From the NCBI RefSeq assembly GCF_019973775.1, contig NZ_AP025032.1:1612001-1676000 (forward strand): 64,000 bases of DNA, given 5' to 3'. The position numbers were made by a program, and so were the translations under genes. Below, one piece after another: positions 35,434-63,989 of this stretch. The DNA comes from Aureimonas sp. SA4125. GTDB lineage: Bacteria > Pseudomonadota > Alphaproteobacteria > Rhizobiales > Rhizobiaceae. Below the pieces are notes generated by a model. The model made no database searches. It saw nothing but the letters and a program-made list of their open reading frames with translations, and was not told the origin of the DNA. How positions within the stretch are numbered: the first letter of the stretch is position 1; each line of letters starts with the position of its first letter.

Positions 35434-35466
35434 GGTGGATCGCCTGATGAGAAGGACGATCCGAGC

Positions 35467-39219: not shown

Positions 39220-39365
39220 TGTCAAACGGCATTCAAATCTGGGTCTGACGCAATCTCGATGACGATCATGGCGCGCCGAGCAGTCGGGCTTCGAGGAGGT
39301 CGATCTTGGCTCGCCCGTACATTTGGCGTTTGACGAGCTTAAGCCTGTTGACGTGCCCTTCGGTC
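39220..39365 (-). mobile_element. ISL3 left-end fragment
   Basis: The end TGTCAAACGGCATTCAAATC followed by TGGGTCTGACGCAATCTCGA, then the last 33 codons of the ISL3 transposase, matching 22149-22249 exactly. It breaks off at 39365 in the middle of TEGHVNRL and joins IS256 sequence. With 43221-43797 it is most simply the two ends of one ISL3 element opened by IS256 (copy D) and internally deleted. Confidence 0.8.
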
Positions 39366-42012: not shown

Positions 42013-43220
42013 GGAGTTCCTCATGCCTCATTGAGAACTCTCCACTTTTCCGGGGCAAGTCCACACAGCGACTTCAGGGTCGATCCCCGGCCGTCCGGAA
42101 CCGGGCGAGTAGCAGTCCGAGACGGCTTCGCGCAGCCAGGAAAGATCCAGGCCGCGATCGACGCGGACGAGGATGTGGTCGTCTGGAAGGAGGTCACGTA
42201 GCGACCCGCACATGTAGAGTTCGAGTTGATCACGCTCCTTCCGACCCAGCATCGCTGCCTCCGGCAAACCATCGACAGGGCCAGTGAATCAGGGGACACT
42301 GACTTCTTCAACAGCCCCACGCGGCAGCGCTGCCATGTCGCGTCAGAACCTTGGTGACGGCCGCCTTGATGCCCTCGTGTGCATCGGACACGACGAGCTT
42401 CACGCCGCGCAGGCCGCGCCGGGTCAGCTTGCGCAGGAACTCGGTCCAGATCGGTTCGGCTTCCGAGGTGCCGACCTCCATGCCGAGCACCTCGCGCCGG
42501 CCATCAGCGTTGACGCCGACGGCGATGATCACGGCGACGCTGACGATGCGCCCGCCGCGGCGGACCTTCAGGTAGGTCGCGTCGATCCAGAGATAGGGCC
42601 AGTCGCCCTCGATCGGTCGTTCGAGGAAGACCTTCACCTTGCCGTCGATCTCTTCGCAAAGCCTCGACACCTGGCTCTTGGAGATGCCGTCCATGCCCAT
42701 CGCCTTGACCAGGTCGTCGACCGAACGGGTCGAGATGCCCTGGACATAGGCTTCCTGGATCACGGCCGTCAGGGCCTTCTCGGCCATGCGCCGCGGCTCG
42801 AGGAAGCCGGGAAAGTAGCTGCCCTTGCGCAGCCTGGGAATGCGCAGCTCGACGGTGCCGGCACGGGTATGCCAGTCCCTGTCGCGATAGCCGTTGCGCT
42901 GGGCGAGGCGCTCGGCGCTCTTCTCGCCATAGCCGGCGCCGGTCGCATTGCCGACCTCCAGTTCCATCAGCCGCTCGGCGGCAAAGCCGATCATCTCGCG
43001 CAACAGATCGGCGTCCGGGGTCTTCTCCAGAAGGCTGCGCAGGCTCATCATGTCGTCGGTCATCAGGGGATCTCCGGTTGCGGTTAGGTCTCGCAACCCA
43101 AGCCTAACCGGAAACCGCTGGTGACCACCGCGTCGCCGATCCCGTCCTACAGCGCAATCAAAGGCGCGGGCGAGATCGGCGACGCTACCGTCGAGCTACA
43201 CCACGGGCGGGGACACGACC

Positions 43221-43797
43221 AAAAGCCCAGTCATCGACGCCGACGGCGGCCAGAGGATCGAGAGGTTTACGGGCCCGGCGCCGAACGACGCGAATCAGCG
43301 TATCGTTGCTGACAGGGATCATCAGGCGTTTGGCAAAGGCGGCGCCCGGTCTCCCTCCGAGGGCGAGGCCGAGATGATGGACGATGGCCTCCATGCGTCC
43401 GGTGCGACGCGACCGTTCCGGAGCCGTCACCCCGAAACGCTCGGCGAAGATCTTCCTGCGGCAACCAAGGCCGTCGCATCGGAAGCGTCGCGTCACCAGT
43501 CGGAGCTGGACGGCTCGACCGGCCAGAGGCAGGTCAGCCAAATGGCGGTGATATCGGCTATGGACGCGGCGGGAGGGACGGTCGCAAGAGGGGCACATCG
43601 CGACCTGCACACGCGCCGATGCCGTTACGATCAAGATGCCGTCCGCCGACTCCTGATGATCTACGGCAAGCCCGGGCGGGATGAGGGATGAAAGCGGCAG
43701 GCGACATGACATGGCAGCGATCTCCATTGAAATCGCCATTCCCATCTCCAAACTGCACCGAAGATGAGTCAGACCCAAAATTGCACGCCGAATGACA
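43221..43797 (-). mobile_element. ISL3 right-end fragment
   Basis: Right end TGTCATTCGGCGTGCAATTT at 43797 and the first 170 or so codons of the transposase (zinc-finger part and up to VGVDDWAFG), nearly identical to the copy at 22.1-23.8 kb with RRRARKPL for RRRTRKRL. It is cut at 43220 by IS256 copy D. It is inserted in an IS5 element (next feature). Confidence 0.85.
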
Positions 43798-44288
43798 GGC
43801 GATGCCCGCGTCATACCCGCAAACCCCTCCGCTTTCGGTGGTTTTGACGCTTTGGCTGTCGATCACGCCGGCTGTCGGACTGGCCTCGCGCCCTTCCAAC
43901 TCGCGAGCGCCGATGACCAGAAGGCCGTTGATCGTCGACAGCAGAGCGCTGTCACGCCAGCCGTAGAAATAGCCGCGAACCGTGGATACCGGCGGAAAAT
44001 CGGCAGGCAGCATTCGCCACTGGCAACCACTCGAGGCAACGTAAAGGATGGCGTTCATCACCTCCCGTAGGCAGGTCGTCCGCGGCCTGCCGCCACGCTT
44101 GGCCGATGGCAGCATCGGCGCAATCAGCGCCCATTCCCTTTCCGTCAGGTCGCTTGGATAGCGAACGCATCTGCGGCTATGCTCAAGCCGAGCGGTATCA
44201 TCCCAGGCCATTTCGATTCCCCATCGTCTCGACAACGTACGGGAATCACAACCTGCTGATATCGCTCAACTCCTTTTCGCTCGGGCTC
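43798..44288 (-). mobile_element. IS5-family remnant, transposase N-terminal half
   Basis: From the right end near GAGCCCGAGCGAAAAGGAGT (reversed, about 44288) the transposase reads MAWDDTARLEHSRRCVRYPS, LTEREWALIAPMLPSAKRGG, SGCQWRMLPADFPPVSTVRG and VIDSQSVKTTESGGVCGYDAG, which is the first DDE Asp region. It is then cut by the ISL3 end at 43797. The C-terminal half is not found in the window. Confidence 0.85.
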
Positions 44289-44547
44289 TAAGGGCGAAGA
44301 TTCATATATTAGTCAATGGTTTGATCTTTCGGAGAGGAGCTTTCCAAGTCAGACCTTGAAAGCCCGGGCAGCGGTTCTGACGAACCCTCTCTTCAGACGC
44401 GTGTGTACCAAGGCTGTATCGACGTTCATGGCGCACGATCGTGTCGTGGGACCGGCAATTCGACAGCCTCGCTCGCAAAAGAGGCCATGTCCGCCGGATC
44501 GAAGTCTCGAACCGCAGATAGCTGCCTTCCGCTGGTCGTGGCCGCTT

Positions 44548-45915: not shown

Positions 45916-48645
<2,730 letters not shown>

Positions 48646-48649
<4 letters not shown>

Positions 48650-49476
48650 CATGGCGGCATGAAGACGGGGCAATGACGGCGGATATTCCGAGAACCGATT
48701 CCTTCTATCGGTTCGTGATCGTCGCGCTCGATGCCATGGGCGGTTCCGGATCGGTCAGCGAGATCGACGACCGGGTGGCGGCCGACCTGAAACTCGGCCA
48801 GGATATGCTGGACCAGACCTATAAGAAAACGGGCGTCGCCATCGTCGCCGACCACATCGCCTGGGCGCCCTCCTATCTCAAGATCGCCGGCCTTGCCGAC
48901 AATCCCTCGCGCGGCATCTGGATCCTGATCGACGACGGCCGCAAGGCGCTCGGCGTCGACGACCGCGTGCTGCGCAGGGTCGTCTCCGAAGCCGCCAAGG
49001 CGCGCGCCAAAAAGGAGGGCGGTAAGGCGATTGCCGAGGACCGTCACGAAATCCTCGAGGCGAACGGGCCGGTCCCCCGAGACGAGGCTTCGCCGCTCTG
49101 GTCCGACCGGCCGCTCGCCATTCTCCTCGCGATCAAGCCCGATGCCTTCGAGCGTCTCTGCCAGCGCGTGCTGCGGGAATCGGGTTTCACCAAGGTCGAC
49201 GTGACCGGCCGTTCCGGTGACGGCGGCATCGACGGCAGCGGCGTGCTGCGCATGAACCTCGTCTCCTTCACCGTTCAGTGCAAGCGCTGGCAGGGCTCGG
49301 TCGGCTCGGGCGTCGTGCGCGACTTCCGCGGCGCCATGGTCGGCCGTTCCGACAAGGGCCTCATCATCACCACCTCGACCTTCACCGCCGATGCGAGGCG
49401 GGAGGCGACGCGCGCCGGCGCGCCGGCGATCAACCTCGTCGACGGAGAGACGCTCTGCGATCTCCTGCGCTGTTGA
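48646..49476 (+). CDS. mrr: Mrr-type restriction endonuclease, C-terminus altered by IS21
   Basis: A 276-residue Mrr homologue. Residues 15-100 form the winged-helix Mrr_N domain (MGGSGSVSEIDDRVAADLKL, SRGIWILIDDGRKALG). Residues 160-270 form the nuclease core: AFERLCQRVLRESGFTKVDV, then SGDGGIDGSG and FTVQCKRWQ, i.e. the D...QxK variant of PD-(D/E)xK, and VRDFRGAMVG. Mrr enzymes cut methylated foreign DNA. The ATG at 48646 overlaps the pseudogene stop (ATGA); 48673 is an alternative. The final Cys codon and the TGA come from the left end of IS21, so the native last residues are lost. Activity is possible since the catalytic core is complete. Confidence 0.88.
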
Positions 49477-49581
49477 TTTCCACCCGGAACTGACCCGGGA
49501 CAGCGCCTGATTTCCACTGAGATTTGACCCATGTGACCTTTCCCCGAGCGCGGCGAGCGAGGGGACAATGGAGTGATCTAC

Positions 49582-51114
49582 ATGGGACTTTTGAACGTCA
49601 TCCGCCGCTTGGCTTTGCGAGAGAAGCTACCGATCCGAGAGATAGCCAGGCGGACCGGGCTCTCGCGGAACACCATCAAGAAGTATCTGAAGGCCGGCAC
49701 GATCGAGCCGAAGTTCTCGGTGCCGGAGCGGCCGAGCAAGCTCGACCCGTTCTCCGACAAGCTTGCAGCCTGGCTGAAGGCCGAAGCATCAAAGTCACGT
49801 AAGCAGCGCCGGCCTTTGACGCACTTGCATGCAGATCTCGTCGCTCTCGGGTTCACCGGTTCCTACAACCGTGTGGCCGCGTTCGCCCGCGAATGGCTTG
49901 CGGAGCGGCAGCGCGAGCAGCAAACGACAGGGCGCGGCATCTTCGTTCCCCTGTCTTTCCGCCCCGGCGAAGCCTTCCAGTTCGACTGGAGCGAGGACCA
50001 TGCGGTGATCGGCGGCGACCGCACCAGGCTTCAGGTCGCGCATATCAAGCTGGCGCACAGCCGAGTGTTCCTCGTCCGTGCCTATCTGCTCCAGACCCAC
50101 GAGATGCTGTTTGACGCTCATTGGCACGCCTTCCGCGTCTTCGGCGGCGTGCCTGAGCGCGGCATCTACGACAACATGAGAACGGCGGTAGACCGCGTCG
50201 GACGCGGCAAGGAACGCCAGATCAACCTGCGTTTCCTCGCCATGACAAACCACTATGTCTTCAAGCCGGAGTTCTGCAATCCGGCCTCTGGTTGGGAGAA
50301 AGGGCAAGTCGAGAAGAACGTGCAGGATGCGCGGCCGCGTCTGTGGCAGCCGATGCCGAACTTTCCCGATCTCGCCACGCTGAATGCCTGGCTCGAGCAG
50401 CGTTGTCTGGAGCTCTGGCGGGAGATCCCACATGGCCGTCTTGCCGGGACCGTCGCCGATGTCTGGGCCGAAGAGCAGCCCACCTTGATGTCGCTACCGC
50501 CTGCCTTCGACGGGTTCGTCGAGCAGAGCAAGCGCGTCTCGCCTACTTGCCTGATCAGCTTCGAACGCAACCGCTACAGCGTGCCGGCTTCTTTTGCGAA
50601 CAGGCCCGTCAGCCTCCGTGTCTACCCGGATCGTCTGGTCATTGCGGCCGAGGGGCAAATCTTGTGCGAGCATGAACGGCGGATCGAGCGATCGCATCAT
50701 CTGCCGCCGCGAACGATCTACGACTGGCATCATTATCTGGCGGTGATCCAGCGCAAGCCCGGCGCGCTGCGCAACGGTGCTCCTTTCGCTGAACTGCCGT
50801 CAGGCTTCCGGCGATTGCAGGATCAGATGTTGCGACGGCCCGGTGGCGATCGCGAGATGGTCGATATCCTTGCCCTGGTCCTGCACCATGATGAGCAGGC
50901 GGTGCTGGCCGCAGTGGAGCTGGCACTGTCAGAGGGGGTCGCCACCAAGACCCACGTGCTCAACATCCTGCACCGTCTGATCGACGGAAAGACGATCGAC
51001 GGCCCGGCCATCGACACGCCGCAAACGCTGCTGCTGCGCCGAGAGCCCAAGGCCAATGTCGAGCGCTACGACGATTTGCGCGCCCGCAGGAGTGGAGGCC
51101 GCCATGCGTCATGA
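49582..51114 (+). CDS. istA: IS21 transposase IstA
   Basis: About 510 residues, intact. N-terminal HTH ([20 protein letters not shown]), rve core with [14 protein letters not shown] (first Asp), [14 protein letters not shown] (second Asp) and [20 protein letters not shown] (Glu), then the Mu-B-like C-terminal part with SYNRYSVP-type [11 protein letters not shown]. The ATG at 49582 with GGAG is preferred over a GTG three codons upstream. Overlaps istB by 11 bases. Confidence 0.95.
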
Positions 51115-51898
51115 TCCCGCCAGCGGCGCCGTCGTCATCATGCTGCGCAGCCTCAAGATGTATGGCATGGCCCAGGCCGTCACCGACCTGATTGAGCAAG
51201 GCGCGCCTGCCTTCGAAGCCGCCGTGCCGATCCTGACGCAGCTCCTCAAGGCCGAGATGGCGGAACGCGAGGTGCGCTCGATCGCCTATCACATGAAGGC
51301 AGCACGCTTCCCGGCCTACAAGGATCTGGCGGGCTTCGACTTCTCAGCCAGCGAGATCAACGAGGCCACGGTGCGCCAGCTCCATCGCTGCGAGTTCATC
51401 GAAGGAATGGAGAATGTCGTGCTGATCGGCGGGCCGGGCACGGGCAAAACCCATGTCGCGACCGCCCTTGGCGTTCAGGCCGTCGAGCATTATCGCCGGA
51501 AAGTTCGGTTCTTCTCGACCATCGAACTCGTCAACATGCTCGAACAGGAGAAAGCCAAGGGCAAAGCCGGCCAACTGGCCGAGACCCTCGTCCGTCTCGA
51601 TCTCGTGATCCTGGACGAGCTTGGATACCTGCCATTCAGTGCCTCAGGCGGTGCGCTGCTCTTCCACCTGCTGAGCAAGCTCTACGAGCGCACCAGCGTC
51701 GTCATCACGACCAATCTGAGCTTCAGCGAATGGGCCACCGTCTTCGGCGATGCCAAGATGACCACCGCGCTGCTCGATCGCCTCACACATCGTTGCCACA
51801 TCCTGGAGACTGGAAATGACAGCTTCCGCTTCAGAGCCAGCACCGACGCCGCCACCCGCAAGAGGAAGGAAAGCGCACATGCCTTGACCCACACATGA
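51104..51898 (+). CDS. istB: IS21 helper ATPase IstB
   Basis: A 264-residue AAA+ helper of IS21, intact: Walker [16 protein letters not shown], Walker [14 protein letters not shown], sensor-1 [13 protein letters not shown] and [20 protein letters not shown]. It regulates and directs IstA. The ATG at 51104 lies inside the end of istA, giving coupled translation. Confidence 0.95.
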
Positions 51899-51971
51899 CC
51901 CACTCAGCATAACTCAGAGCCGGGTCAATTCTCGATGGAAAACCCGGGTCAGTTCCGGGTGGAAATCAACA

Positions 51972-52088
51972 CGTTGCCGTCAGTCGGCCGAGCGAAACCC
52001 GAAGGGGCGAAAGCCCAAAGGATTCGCGATGGACGACAGGGATTCGCAGTTGGAAACGATAGCCGGAGGGTCGCCGGGAAAGGTGCAT
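51972..52088 (-). pseudogene. Tyrosine integrase stump of a second island
   Basis: First 39 codons (MHLSRRPSGYRFQLRIPVVH and on to RLTAT), identical to the intact integrase at 62101-63819. IS21 copy 1 and a linked deletion removed the rest. It shows that the DNA to the left once formed an island with the same type of integrase. Confidence 0.9.
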
Positions 52089-52168
52089 TGGGGTTCCGCC
52101 CTGGGTACACGGCTGGGTACATCAGCCGTTTGGGCGGGGATTTCATAAACGATATCAACCAGTTGCAC

Positions 52169-52188
52169 TGGCGGAGAAGAAGGGATTC
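52169..52188 (-). other. Distal attachment site (att) with tRNA-Ser 3' end
   Basis: TGGCGGAGAAGAAGGGATTC equals the complement of the tRNA-Ser(GCU) 3' end plus CCA at 63900-63919. As an island border it marks the far end of the 52.2-63.9 kb island and at the same time the former tRNA-side junction of the island to its left. Confidence 0.88.
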
Positions 52189-52377
52189 TCCCGAGCGCGT
52201 CCAAAAGGCCCAGAAAACAAGGGTTCTGAAACCGCTTTTCGGCGGAGTGTTTACCATTGCTGTGTATCGGCGTCCACCAGATCTCCGGTCGCTTGAAGGG
52301 CTGAGCTGAACCCGTCACGAGGATGCGTCCGCAGCTTTCTGCTGCGGCGTCTCAGGACGTGTTGCGCTCGGACGCTG

Positions 52378-52405
52378 GTTACCTTATCGGCATTGTTGGG
52401 GTAAC
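52378..52405. promoter_or_regulatory. Possible operator upstream of the LuxR gene
   Basis: GTTACC at 52378-52383 and GGTAAC at 52400-52405 form a spaced 6-bp palindrome, 40 bases before the ATG of the LuxR-type gene. It could be an autoregulatory site; half-sites this short may be accidental. A small hairpin (CCGCAG...CTGCGG) at 52329-52347 precedes it. Confidence 0.25.
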
Positions 52406-52445
52406 AGACGGTTGCGGTTGCTCTAAGCAGCACCGTTGGTGATAC

Positions 52446-53084
52446 ATGCAGGACGACATCATCCCCTTCGTACTTGCGGCGCATCAGAATGGGCAATGCG
52501 AGACCCTCGACCAGGCTAAGGCTTTGTTGCGCTCTTTGTCTGTCCGCCCCATGCGGAACGTGAACCTGTTCGTTATGGACATGCGCTCCAACGATCCACT
52601 TGGCTTCGGCATGCTGGAGACGAAGCAGAATGTTGACCTGCGAGGCGGGGTCGCCCGGCTAGGCGACTACCCCGATAGGAGATGGGTCGAGCAAGATGTC
52701 ATTCCCCACTACCTCAGGGTCAAAGAAGAAAACCAAGCCAGCGTCAGGCAGATGCGTTCGAGGATCCAAGACGTCGTTGCCGTTTTCGATCGAGTCGTCG
52801 TTCCCGTTTTACGCACTGGCGCTGGAACACCTGATTGGGCTTTCTCCCTTACGCGGACTCGTTTCGTGCTTCCCGTAGACGGGACGGCGCTGAGCACTCG
52901 GGAAGACGATGTCCTCGACCTTTTGATTTCCGGTCATTCGGCGAAAGAGATTGCCATGCTCTTGGACCTCTCCTTCAGGACGGTTGAGCACCACATTTCA
53001 GCGATCAAAACCAAACTGGCGGCGAAGAACGTCGCGCATGCAACAGCCATCGGCACCGCCCGCAAGCTCGGGCTTTCAGAATAG
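52446..53084 (+). CDS. LuxR-type transcriptional regulator
   Basis: A 212-residue protein whose last 65 residues are a classical LuxR/GerE HTH: LSTREDDVLDLLISGHSAKE, IAMLLDLSFRTVEHHISAIK and LAAKNVAHATAIGTARKLGL. The N-terminal 130 residues do not resemble a receiver or a typical autoinducer domain by eye, although length and layout (about 240 residues with C-terminal HTH) fit LuxR solos of Alphaproteobacteria. It is the first gene inside the island and may control the following genes. Start ATG 52446 follows TGGTGATAC, with no strong ribosome site. Confidence 0.85.
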   Translation: MQDDIIPFVLAAHQNGQCETLDQAKALLRSLSVRPMRNVNLFVMDMRSNDPLGFGMLETKQNVDLRGGVARLGDYPDRRWVEQDVIPHYLRVKEENQASVRQMRSRIQDVVAVFDRVVVPVLRTGAGTPDWAFSLTRTRFVLPVDGTALSTREDDVLDLLISGHSAKEIAMLLDLSFRTVEHHISAIKTKLAAKNVAHATAIGTARKLGLSE

Positions 53085-53194
53085 GTAGAAATACATTCAG
53101 TCAAATTTCGGCGGCAAATTAAGAGTTTTTTATAAGCCCGCGACTAATGCTCTCCCCCGTAAGCACTTCTAAATTTCACAACCCGGGGCCAGAC

Positions 53195-53584
53195 ATGTCG
53201 AATATTAGCACTACAGAAAGCATAATTTCCCCTGAATCCCGTTCGCTCGGCTATGTTGCTGGGGCCGCTCTTCTCGTTTTTCCAATCGCTACGCCGATCA
53301 TCGCAATGATCGATCGAAAAGAGGCATCACCACTTCTGCAATCTCACTACCTCTATCAGGCCGGCACCTTCTGGAAGAGCCTCATCTTGGCCATCGTCTT
53401 GACGCTGGCGTGGTTGGTGACGATGGCGGCGATGTTCGTCATTCCCCCACTCGCCCTCCTTTCGCCGGTCTTGGCCATCGGCGCCGTGGCACTCTCGGTC
53501 TGGTACGTGGCAAGGGCCATCAAGAGCCTCGTCTATCTCAGCCGCGGTAAGATCTTGTCTAAGCCGGGGACGTGGGCAGTCTGA
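53195..53584 (+). CDS. Small membrane protein, DUF4870-like
   Basis: About 129 residues with three hydrophobic segments: SLGYVAGAALLVFPIATPIIAMI, LILAIVLTLAWLVTMAAMFVIPPL and SPVLAIGAVALSVWYVARAI. Between the first and second is LQSHYLYQAGTFWKSL, reminiscent of the SHxxxQxxTFW part of DUF4870-type proteins. An inner-membrane location is expected. The ATG at 53195 is preferred; an ATG at 53147 would add 16 poorly conserved-looking residues. No function is known. It precedes the secreted-protein operon by 190 bases. Confidence 0.6.
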   Translation: MSNISTTESIISPESRSLGYVAGAALLVFPIATPIIAMIDRKEASPLLQSHYLYQAGTFWKSLILAIVLTLAWLVTMAAMFVIPPLALLSPVLAIGAVALSVWYVARAIKSLVYLSRGKILSKPGTWAV

Positions 53585-54438
53585 AATCTGTGGGTCGCCG
53601 CGGCAGTTGGCACGCGATCGCCGCGGCAGGCATATGGCGCTGAGGCTTCACGTCGAAGCCTATCACTTGGGCGTCGCCTAGCCACTTCGTTCTGCGCCCA
53701 TTCTCAATTGACGGTGCGCTGCTAATAGCGCGCCGCAGAGTGGGTGCTCCTTTCCATCATCTCCGGAAACACCCCATGCGTATCTCTATCGCCATTCTGG
53801 CAGCGCTGCTCTGCGCCGCTCCGGCTCAAGCCCGGACGCTCGACATGTCGGACGAAGCTACGGCATCACTTTTGCGAGCTTACCTTTCGAACTTGCCTCC
53901 GGATTTTGAAGAAATGGCATTGCGGACGGATGCCGTTCGGCAGGCCTCGGAGTTCGACCGCGCCGCCGTTCTAGTATCCGAGATCGATCGGCTCCGTCGC
54001 GACTACACGGGGATGGCCGACGTCGACGGGATCGTGCTCCGCCTATCCGACAGTCTCGGCGAGTACGATGCGGCGGCCGCCGGCTTTCCCCTGCGGACCT
54101 TCGGCCCCGACATCTATGTGCCCCTCGGGGGCACGAAGATCGTTTTCGACAACTACCGAGACTTCGCTGCCTGGAAACTGCCGGTAGCCGAAGCGAAGAG
54201 TGTGTTATCGCAGACCGAAAGGTTGGGTAGGACAGTTGACCTGGAACTGACGGTCAGGCCGTTTGCTGTCTCACGGGATCGCGACGGCGCGCTTCGGACT
54301 CAGGTGCGCTCGGTTCGCATCACGTCTGGCGGGAAGGTGATCGGCACTATGACGACGGAAGCGCCCGACGCGCCCATGCAACGGGCGGGCGATGTTGCCG
54401 CCTCTGCTATTACCGACGAGCGGCTAGACATGCTTGGC

Positions 54439-55238
54439 CTAGGCAGTGTGGACAAAGTGTCTGATCCACAATCGGATGGATGCCACGAGAACGAAGCCGA
54501 GAAAGCTGTCTGCGGTCTTGTCGTATCGCGTGGCCAGCCGCCGACTGTGTTTCAGCTTTGAGAAGCAGCGCTCGACGAGGTTTCTCAGGCCGTAAATGTA
54601 TCCGTCAATGACGGGTTGGACCTTGCGGTTTCGCTTTGCGGGGATGACCGCGGCAACGCCTCTGGCCTTGAGGTCGGCAAGGATGAAGTCGGCGTCGTAT
54701 CCCTTGTCGGCGAGCAGGACACAGGGCTTGGGACCGGGCTGGTCCATGACCGGCGCATAGCCTTTCATATCGGAGACCTGACCGCCGCTCAGCGTGATAG
54801 CGACAGGGAGGCCTCGAGCATTGCTGCGGAGATGGATCTTGGTCGAGAAGCCACCACGAGAGCGGCCAAGACTTTGGTCCTGATCCCTTTTTTTAGCGCG
54901 CCGGCGGCGTGCTGATGGGCGCGGATAATGGTAGAATCGATCATTTGAACGCTGTCATGACCCGTGCCGATCTCATTCAGCGCCTCCAGTATCACGTCCC
55001 AGAGCCCCGCCTGCGTCCAGCGCCGGAACTGGCGATAGACGGAGTTCCAGGCTCCGAAATCGCTGTGTAGATCACGCCACGCCGTCCCCGTTCGGGCGAT
55101 CCAGAAGACCCCGTCGAGCACCAACCGATGATCGCGAGGCCGTCTACCTCGCCTCGGACCCTTCTCGACCACGAACGGCTCGAAGAAGGCCCATTCCGCA
55201 TCCGACATCAAACCTCGAACCAACACCGCCCTCCGCAA
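54439..55238 (-). CDS. IS427-group transposase made by frameshifting
   Basis: OrfA from 55238 (MRRAVLVRGLMSDAEWAFFE, FWIARTGTAWRDLHSDFGAWN, SVQMIDSTIIRAHQHAAGAL with the first Asp) reaches a run of seven A (plus-strand T 54888-54894). A shift there continues in the orfB frame (SLGRSRGGFSTKIHLRSN, LLADKGYDADFIL with the second Asp, RNLVERCFSKLKHSRRLATR with the Glu). The TAG stop is made by the TA target plus one host base. A7G is the usual slippery site for this group, so a fused active transposase is expected. Confidence 0.88.
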
Positions 55239-55295
55239 AGAGCAGCCTTGAATCAGTCAGCAGGTGATTTGGGAATCCCCTTTGTCCACACCGCC
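54442..55295 (-). mobile_element. IS5-family (IS427 group) element, copy 2, intact
   Basis: An 854-bp element with ends GGCAGTGTGGACAAAGTG and (reversed) GGCGGTGTGGACAAAG. Target duplication TA at 54440-54441 and 55296-55297. Identical in the compared parts to the split copy at 30944-33180. Confidence 0.95.
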
Positions 55296-55919
55296 TAAAG
55301 GTCGGATCTTCCTATTCCGACTACATCACCTGGGCAGCGAGGAGCGGTCTCGTCGCGGAACTCATGGACAAACCATACACTATGGTCGCGTCCTACAACT
55401 TCAGCGCCCGCGCCGACGGACTGCCCGGTCCCTGGTCGCCGGTTCGCCCGCCCGCTGCTTTCCCACAGTTGTCGATCGCAGGGGGAGAATTCGACTGCAA
55501 GAGCCAACTCGATAAAGAGAAGCTTTGCGGTACCGTGCACTTCTCCGCCGAGCCTTTGATGGAGAGTAAGCGCGTCCTATCGATGCAGATGGTCCAAAAC
55601 GTCGTTGGCATGACGCCTGAGCAGATCGTCGCCAAACTCGGCGAGAAGTACGGTCCACACACCGACTCCTTCGACGTCGTCGTGTCGGGCGAGAGCAGCC
55701 ATCGCGCCCGTCAGTACGTCTGGGGCGCGCCGTTCCCACTGGACGACAAGAACAGTGGCTCCGTGACGTTTGCGCGGCAGGAGAACAACTGGCAGATCGA
55801 GGCCGTTGTGTTCGAACCCGAAATGAACCGCGCGGTACTGCTGCTTCAACTTATCGGCGCGAGACGGGGCAGCGATGCCGTCGCCGGCGCATCAGACGTC
55901 CGACTCTAGGGAGACCGCG

Positions 55920-56384
55920 ATGGCACAGCTCATTCCGATCACCGGCAGGGTTACTGAACTCAGCAACTCCCACTTCGCTCAGAATTGGACCAACTACGGT
56001 TCTGTCCACATCAGGGAGGACGACGGACGAGTAACCCAAGTGCGGCTCGCCATCGTGACCTCGGAGATGCCGAACGCTCTGGCTGTCGGGACCCGCGGCA
56101 CCTTCTACTTCCGCAAGATGCACTTGTTGGGCAGCACGAGGCAGCTCTTGGCGGCTTGCGAAATCGACGGGCAGTTGAGGACGGCATCCGTCACCAAGGG
56201 CGCCATCACCTTCGGGATCATCACACTCGTGAGCATTCTCTTCATCCCGCTGTTGGTTGGCCTGATCGCGTTTCCCTTGTGTCTCGCGACCGCGATCTCC
56301 TATGCCCGGACGCAAAGTCAGATCTCGGCGCTGCGCCTCAACCCGTCATCCGGTGTGGAGGTGCTCCGTGTCCGTACGATATGA
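55920..56384 (+). CDS. Membrane protein of unknown function
   Basis: A 154-residue protein. Residues 1-85 look beta-rich and soluble (ITGRVTELSNSHFAQNW, VTQVRLAIVTSEMPN, GTRGTFYFRKMHLLG); a pair of hydrophobic segments follows (GAITFGIITLVSILFIPLLVGLIAF and PLCLATAISYAR), then a short tail ending in a segment that overlaps the next gene. The ATG at 55920 has an AGGGAGA site and lies 10 bases after the preceding stop. An inner-membrane anchor with a soluble beta domain is likely. I do not recognise a family. Confidence 0.7.
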   Translation: MAQLIPITGRVTELSNSHFAQNWTNYGSVHIREDDGRVTQVRLAIVTSEMPNALAVGTRGTFYFRKMHLLGSTRQLLAACEIDGQLRTASVTKGAITFGIITLVSILFIPLLVGLIAFPLCLATAISYARTQSQISALRLNPSSGVEVLRVRTI

Positions 56385-57345
56385 GACCGCGCCGCTGCTC
56401 ACCCTTATCTTCGTCGCCCTTTCACTCGTTGGCGGCACCGCCAAGGCCGAGAGCGTCTACACGGACGTCGCCTCGTGCCGTGCGCAAGACCTCGGCCCGG
56501 ACGAGTTCGTGCGGCACTGCAAAGGACCGAAGGGCTATGCTGCGTCCCTCCATTATTTCGATGGTCGGGCGGTCCCTGCTTTTGGCAAGTCCAGACCGGG
56601 GACGAAGGACGAGCCCTATCTCGAATCGGCCGACCTGGAACCCATTGAAATCGGCGTCGGCGTGCCCTTCGGCAAAAAAATCGAATGGGTGATGAGGGGG
56701 GGCGAACCCTGCGCAGCGATACTGCGGGTCGATACCCGGCAGGGAGAAAGGCTCGTCGTCTCCGCTCTGGATGGTGCTTCGTCACGGGTCGGAATGGCCC
56801 GGAAGAACGTGGAGGCACGTCAAATGGCGAGCACAGCCTGCAAGCGGAGGGTGGCGGCACAGCCAGGTGGCAGGGAGCCAGTCGTTCCAACCGAATCAGC
56901 GATCAAACCGACGGGGCTTCCCAGAGTGGGGGACGTCTTGCCCATCTGTTCGAAATGCCCCGGGCCTTTGATCACAGAGGTCTCCGCAGGCAGGACCATT
57001 ACGGTCGTTGCACGGATCGCCCGTCCTCAGGCGAAGGAGCATTGCAGCGCCTGGTACGTCGACAATCCGGAAGGCGAAGCCGATTGCGTCGAAGGCGTCC
57101 TGCGCGATTACGGTGAAAGCCGCTTCACGGCCGCCGCCATGTGCAGCGAACAGTCGATCGTCACGGAGGGTGTCAAGTATCGCTACGACGGTCCAGGGCT
57201 GGACGAATTCGGCGACAGGACGCCTCAGTGGCTGGATCTTAATACAGGAACCCGCGCGGAGTTGTCCTCCGCCGGTGCCCGCCGGACCGTTTCGGCACAG
57301 TTTGAGACCCTCTGCCCCGGCATGCTCGCGGGCATGGGTTTCTAA
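56368..57345 (+). CDS. Secreted cysteine-containing protein of unknown function
   Basis: A 325-residue protein with a signal peptide after a GTG start (RYETAPLLTLIFVALSLVGGTAKA). The mature start SVYTDVASCRAQDLGPDEF, then RHCKGPKGYAASLHYFDG, resembles a common secreted proteobacterial hypothetical family with the SVYTD..C....C.GP.GY pattern. A second part from residue 190 holds four more Cys (ICSKCPGPLITEV, HCSAW, DCVEG). The GTG at 56368 has GGAGG upstream and overlaps the preceding gene by 17 bases, showing coupling. The periplasm is the likely location. Together with the two genes before it, it forms an operon of unknown role on the island. Confidence 0.7.
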   Translation: MSVRYETAPLLTLIFVALSLVGGTAKAESVYTDVASCRAQDLGPDEFVRHCKGPKGYAASLHYFDGRAVPAFGKSRPGTKDEPYLESADLEPIEIGVGVPFGKKIEWVMRGGEPCAAILRVDTRQGERLVVSALDGASSRVGMARKNVEARQMASTACKRRVAAQPGGREPVVPTESAIKPTGLPRVGDVLPICSKCPGPLITEVSAGRTITVVARIARPQAKEHCSAWYVDNPEGEADCVEGVLRDYGESRFTAAAMCSEQSIVTEGVKYRYDGPGLDEFGDRTPQWLDLNTGTRAELSSAGARRTVSAQFETLCPGMLAGMGF

Positions 57346-57742
57346 GCGGTTAGGACGGCATCCTTGCAGTCTGCCGGTGCAAATCCGGCCAACGAGGGTT
57401 CGGATTTCCAAAATGCAAAGTGCTACAGGGGGTGCAGTTCGAGATTTCCGAAAGCCAAGTTAGAATGGGCCGCAGCGCCCGGCGTATCGCTTTGGTCGGG
57501 ACAGCGACCCTGCAACCCGCTCTCCCGCATCCACCTCAACGGGTCGAAGTCATCGAACTAACCCTTCGAAAAAATCGAAGAGACCGCTGCGTCGCGGGAA
57601 GGTTCCCGAGTTTAGAGCATTCGGATTTTTCGAAATGCCGACTCTTAGGGAGAGCGTAACGTTCGAGGGTTTCGAAGGGAGGGCGTGACGGTGCGCTGAT
57701 ACGAACTTGCATATGCGTCGTGCCGACTGACTGGAGAATACG
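57346..57742. other. Intergenic region, no gene recognised
   Basis: About 400 bases before the small HTH gene. It is richer in A/T than the neighbours from 57555 to 57640 and repeats short TTCGA/TCGAA words, some as inverted pairs (57545-57570, 57628-57640, 57670-57685). It may be regulatory; no RNA gene is identifiable. Confidence 0.35.
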
Positions 57743-58081
57743 ATGACCATCGAGAATCTGTCCCGCCCCACGACCGCACTACGACTGAAGGATTTGCAGT
57801 TGGGAATCGAGCTTGTGATCGAGGCGCTCGAACAGGAGCGAGGCGCTCGCGATCGAATTGCCACGCGATACGGGATCCAAAAATCGGTGATCACCGACTG
57901 CGTCCACCGGATCGAAAGCTATTTCGGCGTTAACCTGTTCGCCGGGACCGCGCGGATCGCGGTTACAGCCGCGGGCCGGGAACTGGCTAAGCGCGGCCCC
58001 TCGGTGTTCGATGCTCTCGAAGAGTTGGAGCAGGGGCTACGCGATGCCGAGACGAACGCGCATGTCTCTTCGTCAAGCTAA
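57743..58081 (+). CDS. Small LysR-like winged-helix protein
   Basis: A 112-residue protein resembling only the DNA-binding domain of LysR-type regulators: LQLGIELVIEALEQERGARD, RIATRYGIQKSVITDCVHRI, ESYFGVNLFAGTARIAVTAA and GRELAKRG. The usual 200-residue effector domain is absent and the protein ends at a proper stop with an acidic helix (LEELEQGLRDAETN). It could be a stand-alone regulator such as those controlling transfer or excision of integrative elements. The ATG follows TGGAGAATACG (ribosome site GGAG). Confidence 0.7.
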   Translation: MTIENLSRPTTALRLKDLQLGIELVIEALEQERGARDRIATRYGIQKSVITDCVHRIESYFGVNLFAGTARIAVTAAGRELAKRGPSVFDALEELEQGLRDAETNAHVSSSS

Positions 58082-58096
58082 CGGCCGCGCATACCT

Positions 58097-58270
58097 CTAA
58101 GCCTGCACCTCCCGCAAGAAAACCTCGGCCTGCGTGAGTACCGTCTGAACCGCCTCGTCAGCAAGGTCCGGCGGATAGCCGAACCGCTTCAGAATGCGCT
58201 ACACGAGGATCCGCATCTTCGCCCGGGCGCTCTCGCGGTGGTGCCAGTCGACAGTCGCATTGTTCTGGAG
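58097..58270 (-). pseudogene. hsdR: Type I restriction HsdR, C-terminal stump
   Basis: On the minus strand the segment reads LQNNATVDWHHRESARAKMR, ILV, stop, RILKRFGYPPDLADEAVQTV and LTQAEVFLREVQA to a TAG. This is the well-known C-terminal end of type I restriction subunit R (WHxRESARAxMR..V.RIL...GYPPD). An in-frame TAG and the IS21 end at 58271 show it is a dead remnant. It was too short and interrupted for a normal gene call. Confidence 0.85.
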
Positions 58271-58411
58271 TGTCAAATCGCGTCCAACCGTGACCCCTTT
58301 TCGCGTCCAATATTGACCCCTGCGCTGACGTTGTCGCCGACATGCAAAAGGGGCCCGATCGGGCCCCTTTTGCATGTCGGCGTTCGGGATGATGGATTCC
58401 GTGTTTGAGGA

Positions 58412-59140
58412 TTAGCTTCGGTTTTTGAAGCGCCAGCTCGTGTTGCCGGTTTCGATGATGTCGCAGTGGTGAGTGAGGCGGTCGAGCATCGCCGTGGTCA
58501 TCTTGGCATCGCCGAAGATCTGCGGCCAATCGGCGAAGGCGAGATTCGTCGTGATCAGCAGTGAGGTATGCTCGTACAGCTTGCTGATGAGATGGAAGAG
58601 CAGTTGCCCGCCGGCCTGGCTGAACGGCAGGTAGCCAAGTTCGTCGATCACGACGAGATCGTATCGCAACAGGTTCTCAGCCAGGCGGCCTCCCTTGCCG
58701 GCAGCCTTTTCCTGCTCGAGTTGGTTGACCAGGTCCACGAGATTGTAGAACCGCCCTCGGGCATGAGAGCGGACCACTGCGGCCGAAGTGGCGATGACCA
58801 GATGAGTCTTTCCGGTGCCGGTCCCGCCGATGAATATGGCGTTGCGCTTGGCCTCGAGGAACGCGCCGGTGGCGATCTCGCGCACCTTGGCCTCGTCGAT
58901 CGTCGTGTCGGCAAAGCGGAAGGCGTCCAGATCCTTCAGCACCGGGAACTTGGCACTGGCGACACGGTAGACGATGGAGCGGGCCTGACGATGGTTGTGC
59001 TCGGCCCGCAAGAGACTGGCGAGCAATGGGTAGAGTTCGTCGCGGCGTTGCAGGCCCTTGCCGGTGATCTCGTCGAAGCTGGCGCGCATGCCCTGGAGCT
59101 TCAGATCTTCCATCATGGCCAGAAGGTCGTGGCGCTCCAT
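58412..59140 (-). CDS. istB: IS21 helper ATPase IstB (copy 2)
   Basis: A 242-residue intact Ist[20 protein letters not shown] (Walker A), [20 protein letters not shown] (Walker B), [20 protein letters not shown] (sensor) and [20 protein letters not shown]. The ATG at 59140 is formed in TGATG with the istA stop codon, giving strict coupling. Confidence 0.95.
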
Positions 59141-60639
59141 CACGCCACCTTCCGGATGCTGTCGTAGCGGGCGCAGTCGGCCAACGGCGGGGCCTTCAAG
59201 GCCAGCATCGCGGGAATCTCGATGCTGGACACCGGCGGCGGCTGAAGCTGCCGGGCGAGGATCGTCAAGATCACGTCGCCATGGCAGATCCCGGCCTCTA
59301 CAGCCTCGGTGCAGGCGGCCTCGACGGCATCAAGCCCATGATCGAGGACGGCGCCGAGCACTTTGACGAACTGGCGGTCGCCGTCGTCGTGCCGCTTCAG
59401 ATCGGCACGGACCTGCGCCAGAGCGGGCGGCAGGTCCCAGTCCTTGAACGGCGCTCCGTTGCGCAGCGCCCCCGGCTTCTTCAAAAGCACCGGCAGATAA
59501 TGCCAGGGATCGTAGATGACCTGGTCGCGACGGAATTGCCGCGGATGATCGGCGACGATCTCGCTCTCGAACAGAACGACGACCCGCTCGGCATAGGTTC
59601 GCACCAGGACCGTCTGGCCGGCGGCCCGGGCGTCGACGCTGTAGCGGTTGTAGTCGGCCATGACGAGGCAGGTCGTGCTGGCCCGGACCGCCTTCTCGAC
59701 GAACCCTTCGAACGGCGAGCGAAGCTCCATCAGCGCCAGCTTCTCCTCCTGGAAGACCTCCCAGACGGTCCGATCCTTGAACTCGGGATGACGGGTGCGC
59801 TTGGCATAGGCGATGCACTGGTCTTCAAGCCAAGCGTTCAGCTCCTCGAGGCTTGCTACCTTGGGCTTGGGCCGGAATATCTGGTCGCGCAGGTTGCCGA
59901 CCTGGTTCTCCACCTGGCCTTTCTCCCACCCTGCCGCGGGCGTGCAGGCCACCGGCTCGATCAGGTGGTGCGAGCACATCTGCAAGAAACGGCGGTTGTA
60001 CTGACGGGCCTTGCCCACGAAGATCGTCTCTACGGCCGTCTTCATGTTGTCGTAGATTCCGCGACGACAAACTCCGCCGTAGAAGGCGAACGCCTTGTCA
60101 TGGGCGTCGAAGACCAGTTCCTGCGTCTCCCGGAAATAGGCGCGGACGAACGGCATCCGGCTGTGCGACAGGCGCATGTGAGCGGCCTTCACCATCAGCG
60201 GCAGTCCCTGGAGCGTGATCGTCTCGTGGCTCCAGTCGAACTGGTAGGCCTCGCCAGGTGCGAAGCTCATCGGCACGTACGCCTTTGCTGGAAGACGAGA
60301 GCGCTCCTGACGCCATGTCCGGGCAAACCGATGAACGCTGTCGTGGGCCCCGTCATAGCCGCGACCGCGCAGCTCCTCGAAAAGACGCTGCGTCGAGCGG
60401 CGCTCCCGACAGGGCAGCGCGGCTTCCGCTTCCAGGATGGCCGTCAGGTCCTCGACATAAGCCCCAAGCTTCGGCGCCGGCTGAACCTCGCGCTCGTATC
60501 GGAACTCAGTGTCGTCGCCGCGAACAACTTTGCGGACCGTCGTCCGCGACACTGAAAACTCCCGGGCGATCGTCTTGATCCCCCGCCCTTGGTCGTGAAA
60601 CGCACGCCGTATCTGTCCAATCAAATCCACGCCAATCAT
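59140..60639 (-). CDS. istA: IS21 transposase IstA (copy 2)
   Basis: A 499-residue intact Ist[24 protein letters not shown], core [16 protein letters not shown] (first Asp), [18 protein letters not shown] (second Asp), [20 protein letters not shown] (Glu), then [20 protein letters not shown]. Different from copy 1 in length and sequence. Confidence 0.95.
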
Positions 60640-60764
60640 TCCCCAGCATCGCCCTCCACGGCCCGAAAGGCCGGAAAAGCGGAAACCTAAAACATCGCAG
60701 CAGGGGGTCAGTTTTGGACGCGAAATACCCCGCTCAGGGGGTCAGATTTGCATGCGATTTTACA

Positions 60765-61998
60765 CAGCAGGTTCGACTTGGCGAACCTGCTGGAGATGGC
60801 GCCGACGATCGCGCAACTCCAGCCCGACATCATCGTCGGGGGGCCTCCTTGTCAAGATTTCTCCTCAGCGGGAAAGCGAACGGAAGGTCGAAACGCCAGC
60901 CTGACGCTCGGCTTCGCGATTGCGATCGTAACGGCGAGGCCGGCGTGGTTCGTAATGGAGAACGTCATCGCTGCCCGGAAGACGCAGACCTATGCCCGCG
61001 CCCGCGCCCTCTTCGTGAAGGCCGGCTATGGCCTGACGGAAGTCTCTCTCGACGGCAGCCGCTACGGCACCCCTCAAATGCGCCGGAGATTTTTTGCGAT
61101 CGGGCGCCTTGGCGAGGCGGACGGTTTCCTTGCGTCGGCCATAGCTGAGGCCGCGTCGCCTCACAGGATGTCGGTCCGGGATGAGCTTGGCGACGACGTG
61201 GGTGTACATCCCGGCGGGAACCACCCGCCGGAGGCCCGCGCGTTCTTCATGCGTCCATACACCGGACATTCGGGTGTCCGGTCGATCGACGGCCCGTGCC
61301 CGACCCTCCTGCGGAGCGCACATGAGGGGCCGCAGAACTGGTACGTCGATCATGAGCGGGACATGGGACCGTCAGCGGACATTCCCCCGCTGCCGATGGA
61401 TGTACTGTCACGCATCCAGGGGTTTCCTGCGGACTGGAACTGGCTCGACATCCCCCAGAACCGCAGACGGATGTTGATGATCGCGAACGCGGTTCCGCCG
61501 CCGCTAGCCGAAGCGGTCGGGCGCGCGATCCTCGCTCGGGCACACGGGGAGACGATCCCGACAACTGAGAAGGCGTTCGACAAGTGGCTCCAGAAAGGCC
61601 GTAAGGGTCTCAAGGACCAAGCGCTCCGGAACCGCCGCTTGAATCTCAAAAAGGCGCGCCGTCTTTTGGGCGGACGAATCCTCGCAAATATCGACGCCGA
61701 ACTGGCGTTGCTGGAAAAGGCGGAGGGGTTCGCGGAGCTTTCCGTCCGGTCGAGGTCCGAACTACGCGGGGCTTTGCGGTCTCATGCGAAGTGGCGAGCC
61801 GAGGTGGCTGCGGCGAAGGCGCTGAAAGCCGAACTCAAGCTTTACGACGGAATGACCGAGGCTGACTTCAATGCGCGCGCTCGCGAAGAAGAAGCCATCG
61901 AAGCGGACCATCTCCCCTTCAACCCGCGGGTGGCCGCGTCTCTCCAAGCTTCACGCGGAAACATGGGGGAGCTGTCCAATACGGTTGAGGTATCCTGA
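60765..61998 (+). pseudogene. C5-cytosine DNA methyltransferase, N-terminus lost to IS21
   Basis: About 410 residues of a Dcm/HsdM.C5-type enzyme. Motif IV with the catalytic Cys is GGPPCQDFSSAGKR, motif VI is WFVMENV, motif VIII QMRRRFFAIG, motif IX VLSRIQGFPADW and motif X IANAVPPPLAEAVGRAI, in the right order. Motif I (FxGxGG) and the first 60 or so residues are absent, replaced by the IS21 end, so SAM binding should be lost. A 150-residue helical C-terminal extension follows motif X (KARRLLGGRILANIDAEL). An in-frame ATG exists in the IS end at 60748, but the product would lack motif I. Probably once part of the restriction cargo. Confidence 0.85.
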
Positions 61999-62026
61999 TC
62001 CCCCACCCGAACTAGCGTTCGCCTCC

Positions 62027-62048
62027 GACCCTCCCCCCGGGGAGGGTC
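62027..62048. terminator. Strong hairpin between convergent genes
   Basis: GACCCTCCCC and GGGGAGGGTC form a 10-bp stem with a 2-base loop, halfway between the methyltransferase stop (61998) and the integrase stop (62101), which face each other. A short TT follows on the plus strand. Probably a shared terminator. Confidence 0.55.
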
Positions 62049-62100
62049 TTACGCCCTCGCGGCGGCGATGTGATCCGCCCGGCTCGTGCCGGCTAAGCCG

Positions 62101-63819
62101 TCACTCCCCGGCCGCGGTTGAGGCTGCTCGAACCTTCTTCCGCCTAAGCTGCCGCGCTGGGCCACGGGTGGTCCGGTAGGGCGACAGGTCCAGCCCCTCG
62201 GGCAAGGGCATCGCCGCCAGCACCTCGACTTCGTCGGCGCGCAGCGTCTTCGAGCCGTAGCTCTCCTCGACCGTCTTGAACGCGTGCCCCGTCTGCATGC
62301 TGGATGTCCGGGGATCGACCTTTGCGATACGGAGGAGGTCCTTGGCGCTGTGACGCGATGAGTGGAACACGGTCGCGAGCCGCGTGTGCAGCCCGTACGC
62401 TCGAAGTCGCGCTCCCTGACGCTTCGAGGCGGTGTCGGCCGGATCGGCGATGTCGCGATGTAGATGCGGGAACACCCATTCGCTATCCCGACGCGCCTTC
62501 GCGTAGGCGACGAATCCGACCTCGACCAGTTCTTGGTGCAAGGCGAACAGGCGACGGCTGCCGTCGTTCTTGATCTGGCGGATTTCCGCTTTGCCATTGA
62601 TCGTCAGATACCTCATGAGGTTCGCGACCCAAAGGCCCGGCCGGACTTCTTGGATGTCACCGCCCTGGAGGTAGGCCAACTCGCCGATGCGGGCGCCGGT
62701 GAGGGTGCCGAGCAGCGGCAGCCAGTAGTCGTCTGGACGGACCTCTTTCGTAGCGCGCGCGAACCATGTGTTCAGCGCCTCGACGCTGAACGGCTCGCGC
62801 GTGACGGCCTTCGGGGCGTGCGCTGGCGGGGTGACGGTCATTCCGGTGAAGGGCGAGTCGAATTCGCGATCGACAGCCAGCCACTCGAACGCGCCGACGA
62901 CGGCGCCGACATAGGTGACGATCGTTGTTTCCGACCGACAGGGCGGAATGGGTTTTCCCGCTTTCCGGCGTTCCGCGATTCTGCCCGCGATTTCCAACGG
63001 CGTGGAGCCTTGGAACTCCTTGAGCTTGGTCCAGTGGTTCGGCATGTCGGCGATGATCTTGCCGAAGGTCCGTAAGTCCTTCTTGACGTATGCCGACAAC
63101 GGCTTGTCGCCGACGATGGCGATGAACTCGCCGAGCTTGCCGGCGATGCCGATCGCGTAAGCCTCCGACCTGCCAGCGTCCCGGACCGATTGCGTGTAGG
63201 CGCCGACACACGAACTGAGCAACGGCAGACCGGGAACCTCGGGGACGACGGGAGGCAACGGCGAAGCGACGGGGGCCACAGCCGCGTTGGCAGGCTGAGG
63301 GTCGATCCGCCGTCCGATGGTGAGGGCGAGGTCGACGAACCGCTCGTGGCTCGCCCGTTCCGACGACCACGCGGCTTCATCCTGCGCCAGCGCCGCGCCG
63401 ACGACGTCGAGCCTTGTCCGGATCGACGCCAGCGCCTTCCTGCGGGCATCCTGCGCGGCGGCGGCGGAGCGGTGATGCGCGGCGAGTTCCCGCGAGTCGG
63501 GATCGTCGTGCCCGCCGTGCTGATCGGCCTCCGAGCGGGCCGACGCAGCTTTCAGCCCAGCCCAGCGGATTCCGCGGTCAAGCGTTTCCAGCTCGGCGGC
63601 CAGAACGGCCAGGCTGCGGATCAGGGTTTCGCGGTCGGCCATGCCAGCATCCCAAAGCTCGTGACAGTGAGCCGCAAGCCTAGTCGCTCTGCGTTGAGCT
63701 TCCGTTGCCGTCAGTCGGCCGAGCGAAACCCGAAGGGGCGAAAGCCCAAAGGATTCGCGATGGACGACAGGGATTCGCAGTTGGAAACGATAGCCGGAGG
63801 GTCGCCGGGAAAGGTGCAT
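62101..63819 (-). CDS. Tyrosine-recombinase integrase of the island
   Basis: A 572-residue phage-type integrase. The N-terminus (RRPSGYRFQLRIP) resembles the DUF6538-like arm domain; a long helical region (residues 40-190) follows, then a SAM-like core-binding part (SEAYAIGIAGKLGEFIAIVG). The catalytic domain has TGARIGELAYLQ (Arg I), then RHSAKDLLR preceded by HSS (HxxR), and TGHAFKTVEESYG (His/Tyr). It lies next to the tRNA-Ser 3' end, the normal place for an island integrase. The ATG at 63819 is inside the duplicated att region. It appears intact, so the island may still be mobile. Confidence 0.92.
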   Translation of the reverse strand: MHLSRRPSGYRFQLRIPVVHRESFGLSPLRVSLGRLTATEAQRRATRLAAHCHELWDAGMADRETLIRSLAVLAAELETLDRGIRWAGLKAASARSEADQHGGHDDPDSRELAAHHRSAAAAQDARRKALASIRTRLDVVGAALAQDEAAWSSERASHERFVDLALTIGRRIDPQPANAAVAPVASPLPPVVPEVPGLPLLSSCVGAYTQSVRDAGRSEAYAIGIAGKLGEFIAIVGDKPLSAYVKKDLRTFGKIIADMPNHWTKLKEFQGSTPLEIAGRIAERRKAGKPIPPCRSETTIVTYVGAVVGAFEWLAVDREFDSPFTGMTVTPPAHAPKAVTREPFSVEALNTWFARATKEVRPDDYWLPLLGTLTGARIGELAYLQGGDIQEVRPGLWVANLMRYLTINGKAEIRQIKNDGSRRLFALHQELVEVGFVAYAKARRDSEWVFPHLHRDIADPADTASKRQGARLRAYGLHTRLATVFHSSRHSAKDLLRIAKVDPRTSSMQTGHAFKTVEESYGSKTLRADEVEVLAAMPLPEGLDLSPYRTTRGPARQLRRKKVRAASTAAGE

Positions 63820-63919
63820 TGGGGTTCCGCCCTGGGTACACGGCTGGGTACATCAGCCGTTTGGGCGGGGATTTCATAAACGATATCAACCAGTTGCACT
63901 GGCGGAGAAGAAGGGATTC
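63703..63919. repeat. 217-bp direct repeat, right copy (attachment region)
   Basis: Exact copy of 51972-52188. It spans the integrase start and the tRNA 3' end. The tRNA part continues beyond the repeat on this side, so this is the copy that holds the intact tRNA gene. Confidence 0.95.
63832..63852. promoter_or_regulatory. Paired CTGGGTACA repeats, possible integrase arm sites
   Basis: CTGGGTACA occurs at 63832-63840 and 63844-63852 with a 12-base period, 48 bases from the tRNA end, upstream of the integrase gene. Short direct repeats at such a place usually bind the integrase N-terminal arm domain or autoregulate its gene. The same pair is seen at 52101-52121. Confidence 0.45.
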
Positions 63920-63989
63920 GAACCCTCGAAACGGTTCCCCGTTTACGCCCTTAGCAGGGGCGCGCCTTCGACCACTCGGCCACCTCTCC
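63900..63989 (-). tRNA. tRNA-Ser (anticodon GCU)
   Basis: Long-variable-arm tRNA read on the minus strand from GGAGAGGTGGCCGAGTGG, anticodon loop CTGCTAA (GCU), variable arm GTAAACGGGGAACCGTTTC and T-arm GGGTTCGAATCCC, to the acceptor end CTTCTCCG followed by encoded CCA. The 7-bp acceptor stem (GGAGAGG with CTTCTCC, one G-U) is complete, so the gene is functional after island insertion. Confidence 0.97.

Follow-up and report, generated by a model that had tools for sequence, protein, structure and literature searches.

In accretion, as set out in the sections of PMC5704250 that deal with it, an incoming element enters the attachment (att) site of a resident one, a chimeric core is left between the two and the partners are generally decayed; tandem accretion and composite islands are also defined in the corresponding part of PMC8978831. 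Here, we consider a tRNA-Ser(GCU) gene in a 64,000-nucleotide stretch of Aureimonas sp. SA4125 (contig NZ_AP025032.1, positions 1,612,001 to 1,676,000 of the forward strand; the window in what follows), where an island with an intact tyrosine integrase gene is followed by a second, truncated integrase gene whose remaining start is identical. Our favoured explanation is tandem accretion, with two integrative elements of practically identical integrase ends lying head-to-tail at the tRNA gene, and we give it a probability of about 0.86.

The likeness to the published cases is that a core copy again lies between the elements and that one partner is decayed. The difference is that, as far as the account in PMC5704250 goes, the integrases in a tandem of functional elements are as a rule distantly related, whereas the 39 codons remaining of the second integrase gene are identical here. 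For Salmonella genomic island 1, tandem arrays of up to six copies are cited in the portion of PMC5704250 concerned; there, a single site carries several copies of the element in head-to-tail order, in keeping with the perfect identity at our locus. That island has another integrase, however, and its target is the 3' end of thdF, while in SA4125 only a stub is left of the second copy. In Sinorhizobium meliloti KH46 two sequential integrations at tRNA-Lys(CUU) are described in the relevant part of PMC11476347; there too a tRNA gene carries two stacked elements separated by a core copy, but the core is of 49/46 bp, the target is tRNA-Lys and the elements are far larger, at 137.5 kb together.

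We regard the stacked islands as an ordinary, well-documented kind of event, of which this locus is a fresh and clear example: a compact, well-bounded case of islands that accumulated at one tRNA gene and were then fixed in place by insertion sequences (ISs). With identical integrase ends and an intact inner integrase, it is also a possible test case for the tolerance of a second self copy. The argument is carried by the cores, the spacer, the stub, the IS boundary, the intact frame of the inner integrase, a same-genus locus that is free of an integrase and a relative with one full-length integrase.

Repeat, cores and truncated integrase

The repeat finder reported a single direct repeat between 40000 and 64000. 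Its copies, at 51972-52188 and 63703-63919, are 217 nt long, 100% identical and offset start-to-start by 11,731 bp. Each begins with 117 bp from the 5' end of the integrase gene, followed by a spacer of 80 bp and then by the 20 bp that form the 3' end of tRNA-Ser(GCU). The last assignment rests on ARAGORN, which places this tRNA, the only one in the window, at 63900-63989 on the minus strand, so that 63900-63919 is its 3' end. The right-hand copy adjoins the intact tRNA and a 572-codon integrase gene; the left-hand copy holds integrase codons 1-39 only, at 100% identity. The initial annotation had described exactly such a repeat, with copies 11.73 kb apart, one retaining the first 39 integrase codons and the other next to the intact tRNA and integrase genes, and the repeat finder and ARAGORN bear it out.

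Two exact copies of the 20-bp core occur in the window, against 0.01 expected from shuffling with up to three mismatches allowed. They bound an inner island of 11,731 bp (52189-63919) at both ends, as had been proposed for the 52.2-63.9 kb interval. The integrase frame of this island is intact and starts 80 bp from tRNA-Ser(GCU), next to the intact tRNA 3' end, and the exact copy of that end lies at the far end of the island, at 52169-52188. The DNA between the cores at 52169 and 63919 appears, judged by its sequence, to be an accessory element. Beyond the middle core lies the remnant of a second element in the same orientation, namely the 39-codon stub with its own 80-bp spacer.

The edges of the repeat are informative. 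In support of tandem accretion, its inner edge is the exact end of the tRNA-derived core. Its left edge, 51972, is the base following the terminal inverted repeat of an IS21-family element. Since the IS fixes one edge and the end of the core fixes the other, 217 bp is no natural unit, and we caution against reading biology into a length that merely records where the IS cut.

These edges also bear on the idea that the stub arose without a second integration, by a duplication, local or IS-mediated, of the junction between integrase and tRNA in a single island. An IS21-family element does abut the stub, and its ends are present at seven places in the genome, the stub-side copy included, which makes an IS-driven rearrangement plausible. 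The copied piece, however, stops exactly at the core end (52188), with cargo DNA beyond, which is unexpected for a random duplication; moreover, a single island needs a far-end core in any case, and here an integrase start is already joined to that core, oriented as it would be after a second integration. We consider such a duplication unlikely.

Tandem copies of integrase genes are a classic site of misassembly, and a tandem repeat that was collapsed or wrongly joined has to be weighed for this reason. Against it, the chromosome is one contig of 4.97 Mb, the repeat is just 217 bp long and its left copy has a unique IS junction of its own, so that an assembly artefact is scarcely credible.

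Under tandem accretion two elements would have inserted successively, a tyrosine integrase recombining the core of each with the 20-bp tRNA 3' end. Each integration would have restored the tRNA gene, and the resulting order would have been tRNA, integrase, inner island, core, integrase and outer island. Later, we infer, an IS21-family element together with an associated deletion or rearrangement removed the outer element beyond integrase codon 39, and the IS joined the integrase stub to the end of the mrr gene. A newcomer would yield the same arrangement whether it entered the att site beside the tRNA or the distal one, and the order of insertion cannot be read from it. The stub need not, then, belong to the earlier island, as the initial annotation had it, and its truncation is to be ascribed to the IS21-family element that adjoins base 51972 and not to displacement by a second insertion. 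The more general proposal of two tandem integrations of one integrase lineage at tRNA-Ser(GCU) is supported.

A search of the 5.1-Mb genome for the core at up to two mismatches gave, besides the two exact copies, one match with one mismatch and one with two. The former (position 794303) falls within the coding frame for a BrkB-family membrane protein; the surrounding 8 kb contain no tRNA, and we put the match down to chance. The latter belongs to tRNA-Ser(CGA), whose neighbour is an integrase paralogue of 30% identity (G000:C1:4376789-4377742), and was also set aside; this second serine tRNA gene of the genome seems to be occupied too.

The IS21-family element at the stub

The 2501-bp IS has perfect terminal inverted repeats of 29 bp at 49471-49499 and 51943-51971. 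Both this IS and a second, different one within the inner island (58271-60764) belong to the IS21 family, having istA and istB in tandem with matches to NF033546 (transpos_IS21) above the cut-off and to PF01695 (IstB_IS21). The 2501-bp element truncates both the integrase stub and the end of mrr; the IS ends on the base immediately preceding 51972, so that it is there that the stub was cut. When the genome was searched with the whole integrase (E up to 0.001), three matches were obtained, which are the intact gene, the stub and the paralogue beside tRNA-Ser(CGA); nothing recognisable is therefore left of codons 40-572 of the outer integrase.

A short target-site duplication is the usual mark of IS21 elements, although it does not define the family. 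None was seen for the copy at the stub, and we considered whether this proves an IS-mediated deletion. We rejected this argument: five of the six other copies also lack a duplication and the sixth has 3 bp at most, an unexpected finding for this family. With no convincing duplication in the other six copies, and since later rearrangement can erase one, the test is uninformative. Three of these six copies measure 2501 bp between their ends and three are longer.

The position of the IS also invites the suggestion that the IS21-family element, and not the integrase, took up the island in circular form by cointegration. The junction at 52089-52300 is indeed laid out like the attachment site of a circle, with far end, core and integrase start, and the IS stands at the edge of the stub. 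To account for the right-hand end, such a capture would still require cores to have been exchanged at the tRNA, however, and a second IS copy would be expected on the other side, where none is present at 63.7-63.9 kb. We judge it to be very improbable.

Returning to tandem accretion, the two elements differ in what they could still do. The inner island would be predicted to excise as an 11,731-bp circle, leaving the stub beside the tRNA. The outer element is predicted not to be excisable by its own integrase. Only one att site was found for it, whereas a cis-mobilizable element (CIME), having lost its integrase, keeps both, and we do not class it as such.

The locus and the integrase in related genomes

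The samples contained five genomes of the same genus (G001-G005). In G003 no integrase is present among the open reading frames (ORFs) read beside the 3' end of tRNA-Ser(GCU), the only match to this integrase lying on another contig, and the inner island is absent from the locus. The right flank, with a DegT-type aminotransferase gene and the next genes, is common to G003 and SA4125 at about 80% DNA identity. The aminotransferase gene is about 0.5 kb upstream of the tRNA in G003 and about 10.6 kb from it in SA4125. To the right of the window (L016:190-10800), about 10 kb of DNA, with several transposase ORFs and a gene identified by eye as RTX-type, lie between the tRNA and the aminotransferase gene.

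The other members of the genus vary at this site. In G001 another integrase directly adjoins the same tRNA (Phage_integrase, E 2.6e-14). Among the ORFs of at least 200 residues nearest the tRNA in G004 and G005 no integrase was seen by eye, and G002, which is 65% complete, gave two weak matches to the flank query. Compared with the SA4125 genome, the left-flank DNA of G003 has one short match in the window and that of G005 has none.

One scan of genome contigs yielded a single close relative of the integrase, in Aureimonas pseudogalii DSM 102238, with 74% identity over 563 residues. Its start, like that of the inner integrase, is 80 bp away from a serine tRNA gene, and the orthologous convergent gene for a C5 methyltransferase adjoins the integrase gene (L079, L096 and L097). 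The element differs in using the isoacceptor tRNA-Ser(GGA) and another core. A second core copy, of 16 bp, lies in the same orientation at 409-424 on the contig, 39.4 kb away, and the genes between the cores include those for a MobA/MobL relaxase, an MmeI-like protein, a helicase-like protein and a T5orf172-domain protein. Its far end was tried as a homologue of the far end of the inner island and rejected, blastn giving matches of 15-16 bp only.

The A. pseudogalii element also serves as a measure of divergence. It is identical to our repeat at 97 of 117 integrase positions and 65 of 80 spacer positions, or 162 of the 197 non-core positions (82%), whereas the two copies in the window differ at none of the 197. 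From this difference in divergence we conclude that the two window elements are the same element twice or very recent sisters. With 217 bp left of the outer one and 0/197 differences, the 'two related islands' of the initial annotation are indistinguishable from two copies of one element.

Just beyond the far core of A. pseudogalii there is a decayed integrase-like N-terminus on the minus strand at about 212-271 with a stop inside (L096:1-430, NZ_JACIEK010000005.1). It is oriented as the window stub is, and the contig ends there. Ten of 20 residues match (tblastn E 1.4), the ungapped score over these 20 residues is 51 as against 99 for the real integrase start, and a Pfam scan of the piece found nothing. 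The score was reached by none of 2000 random 200-bp segments drawn from the same 40 kb, a count that includes draws skipped because they fell within 400 bp of the site. If real, this would be a second case of stacking in the lineage, again with a decayed outer integrase. It is conceivable, though we hold it rather doubtful, that this integrase lineage stacks repeatedly at serine tRNA genes, that its elements do not exclude a second copy and that decay of the outer integrase then locks the outer copy in place.

With up to nine candidates considered per genome, integrase matches occur in 57 of 149 relatives and are at most 37% identical among the matches listed over more than 60 residues. Of 29 loci of these distant relatives of the integrase that were fetched (L020-L048), seven have a tRNA-Ser, seven have other tRNAs and 15 have none. 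No relatives were found in viral contigs, and those in plasmids (20 records) are all below 60% identity.

The cargo of the inner island was compared in the same way. Searched against SA4125 itself and the 149 relatives with two candidate stretches per genome, 52189-58270 has substantial matches only in an IS that it contains (54437-55297), and outside that IS four short ones, in G106, G148, G042 and G149. The search was repeated against 59 relatives with the IS left out, in two parts and with five candidate stretches per genome: 52189-54436 matched none of the 59, and 55298-58270 had short matches in three (131 bp in G106, about 30-50 bp in G003 and G035).

Besides the repeat and its cores, we count in favour of tandem accretion the G003 locus, the A. 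pseudogalii relative, the seven distant loci with a tRNA-Ser, the shortness of the cargo matches, the different integrase of G001 and the three matches of the genome search with the integrase. Several points weigh against tandem accretion as we have drawn it. While the tRNA-side and middle cores are seen, no third, outer core was found genome-wide at up to two mismatches apart from the two matches explained otherwise, and no further 12-bp start or end of the core occurs in the window or in the 20 kb leftward; for want of this copy, which the initial annotation proposed to look for left of the window, the outer island is without a visible far end. Two genes in the 20-kb left flank of G003 have relatives in the window: one encodes a DUF2793 protein (51% identical and oppositely oriented, at window 8.3-8.9 kb), the other an ABC ATPase (37% identical, at 25.4-26.0 kb). 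They weakly suggest that the left part of the window may be the old left flank. The correspondence is weak, however, and a clean left-side empty-site junction is for this reason not seen, so that the empty locus expected among relatives is realised in G003 as regards the missing integrase and the common right flank but not on the left. Nor did we find a relative with exactly this element alone at tRNA-Ser(GCU); the nearest integrase is the 74%-identical one from Aureimonas. Finally, absence of the cargo from relatives is limited evidence, since few candidate stretches were scored per genome.

Inner-island genes and the left flank

The coordinates of all features are collected in Table 1. Against Pfam Phage_integrase the inner integrase scores 21.1 bits, below the curated cut-off of 27.1; we take its catalytic set to be R377, H486, R489, H512 and Y521 on the strength of a sequence motif. 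Among the inner-island ORFs that were scanned, a set that took in some but not all of the short ones, none matched a relaxase or conjugation family.

Table 1. Features of the tRNA-Ser(GCU) locus, in window coordinates
Feature	Position	Strand	Basis or detail
MmeI-like type IIG pseudogene	45916..48646	+	frame changes; residues ~95-313 of G005 homologue missing
Mrr-like restriction gene	48646..49476	+	about 24 C-terminal residues relative to G042 homologue lost at IS start
IS21-family element, 2501 bp	49471..51971	+	istA 49573-51114, istB 51056-51898
Outer-island integrase stub, codons 1-39	51972..52088	-	repeat finder; protein match, residues 1-39, 100%
Outer-island 80-bp spacer	52089..52168		repeat finder; identical to 63820-63899
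Attachment core, second copy (inner island far end, outer island start)	52169..52188		repeat finder
Inner-island cargo	52189..58270	+	LuxR-type regulator 52446-53084, unknown genes, IS 54437-55297, LysR-like fragment 57743-58081
Possible restriction-subunit gene tail	58097..58270	-	tentative, by eye; internal stop; cut by second IS21-family element
Second, different IS21-family element	58271..60764	-	istA 59140-60639, istB 58412-59143; ends read by eye
C5-cytosine DNA methyltransferase, lacking N-terminal ~54 residues	60765..61998	+	cut by second IS21-family element
Intact inner-island tyrosine integrase, 572 aa, DUF6538 N-terminus	62101..63819	-	ORF and Pfam
80-bp spacer, integrase start to tRNA	63820..63899		equal length and 65/80 identical in A. 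pseudogalii
Attachment core, tRNA-side copy (tRNA 3' end)	63900..63919		repeat finder, shuffling test
Intact tRNA-Ser(GCU), integration target	63900..63989	-	ARAGORN

The methyltransferase and its Aureimonas orthologue, whose gene adjoins the related integrase, are 84% identical, and the alignment starts at residue 55 of that orthologue because the second IS21-family element has replaced the start of the gene. The inner island is thus itself damaged, although its integrase frame is intact. At the opposite end of this IS the putative restriction-subunit tail has short DNA matches in G106 and G148. Near the istB end of the IS there is a perfect 48-bp palindrome with zero spacer at 58335-58382.

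To the left of the stub lie the MmeI-like pseudogene and mrr, which had been assigned to the first island as probable cargo. The MmeI-like homologue in G005, a single open frame of 1139 residues with 74% DNA identity, lies on the opposite, 5' side of the same tRNA, at a distance of 125 bp. Mme and Mrr homologues occur together in G042 and G051, and in the 19 kb inspected of each there is neither a tRNA-Ser nor a relative of this integrase. The G042 mrr homologue continues for about 24 residues beyond the point at which the window gene enters the IS. Mme and Mrr may have come with the outer island, a point on which these relatives tip neither way.

On the left, the stack may give way to the old chromosome within the IS-rich 29.5-44.3 kb, where no core copy marks a boundary. 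The region at 29500-44300 is a graveyard of nested, near-identical IS copies, with two 965-bp direct copies at 34435-35399 and 35400-36364 and a 1270-bp inverted pair at 29690-30959 and 33165-34434.

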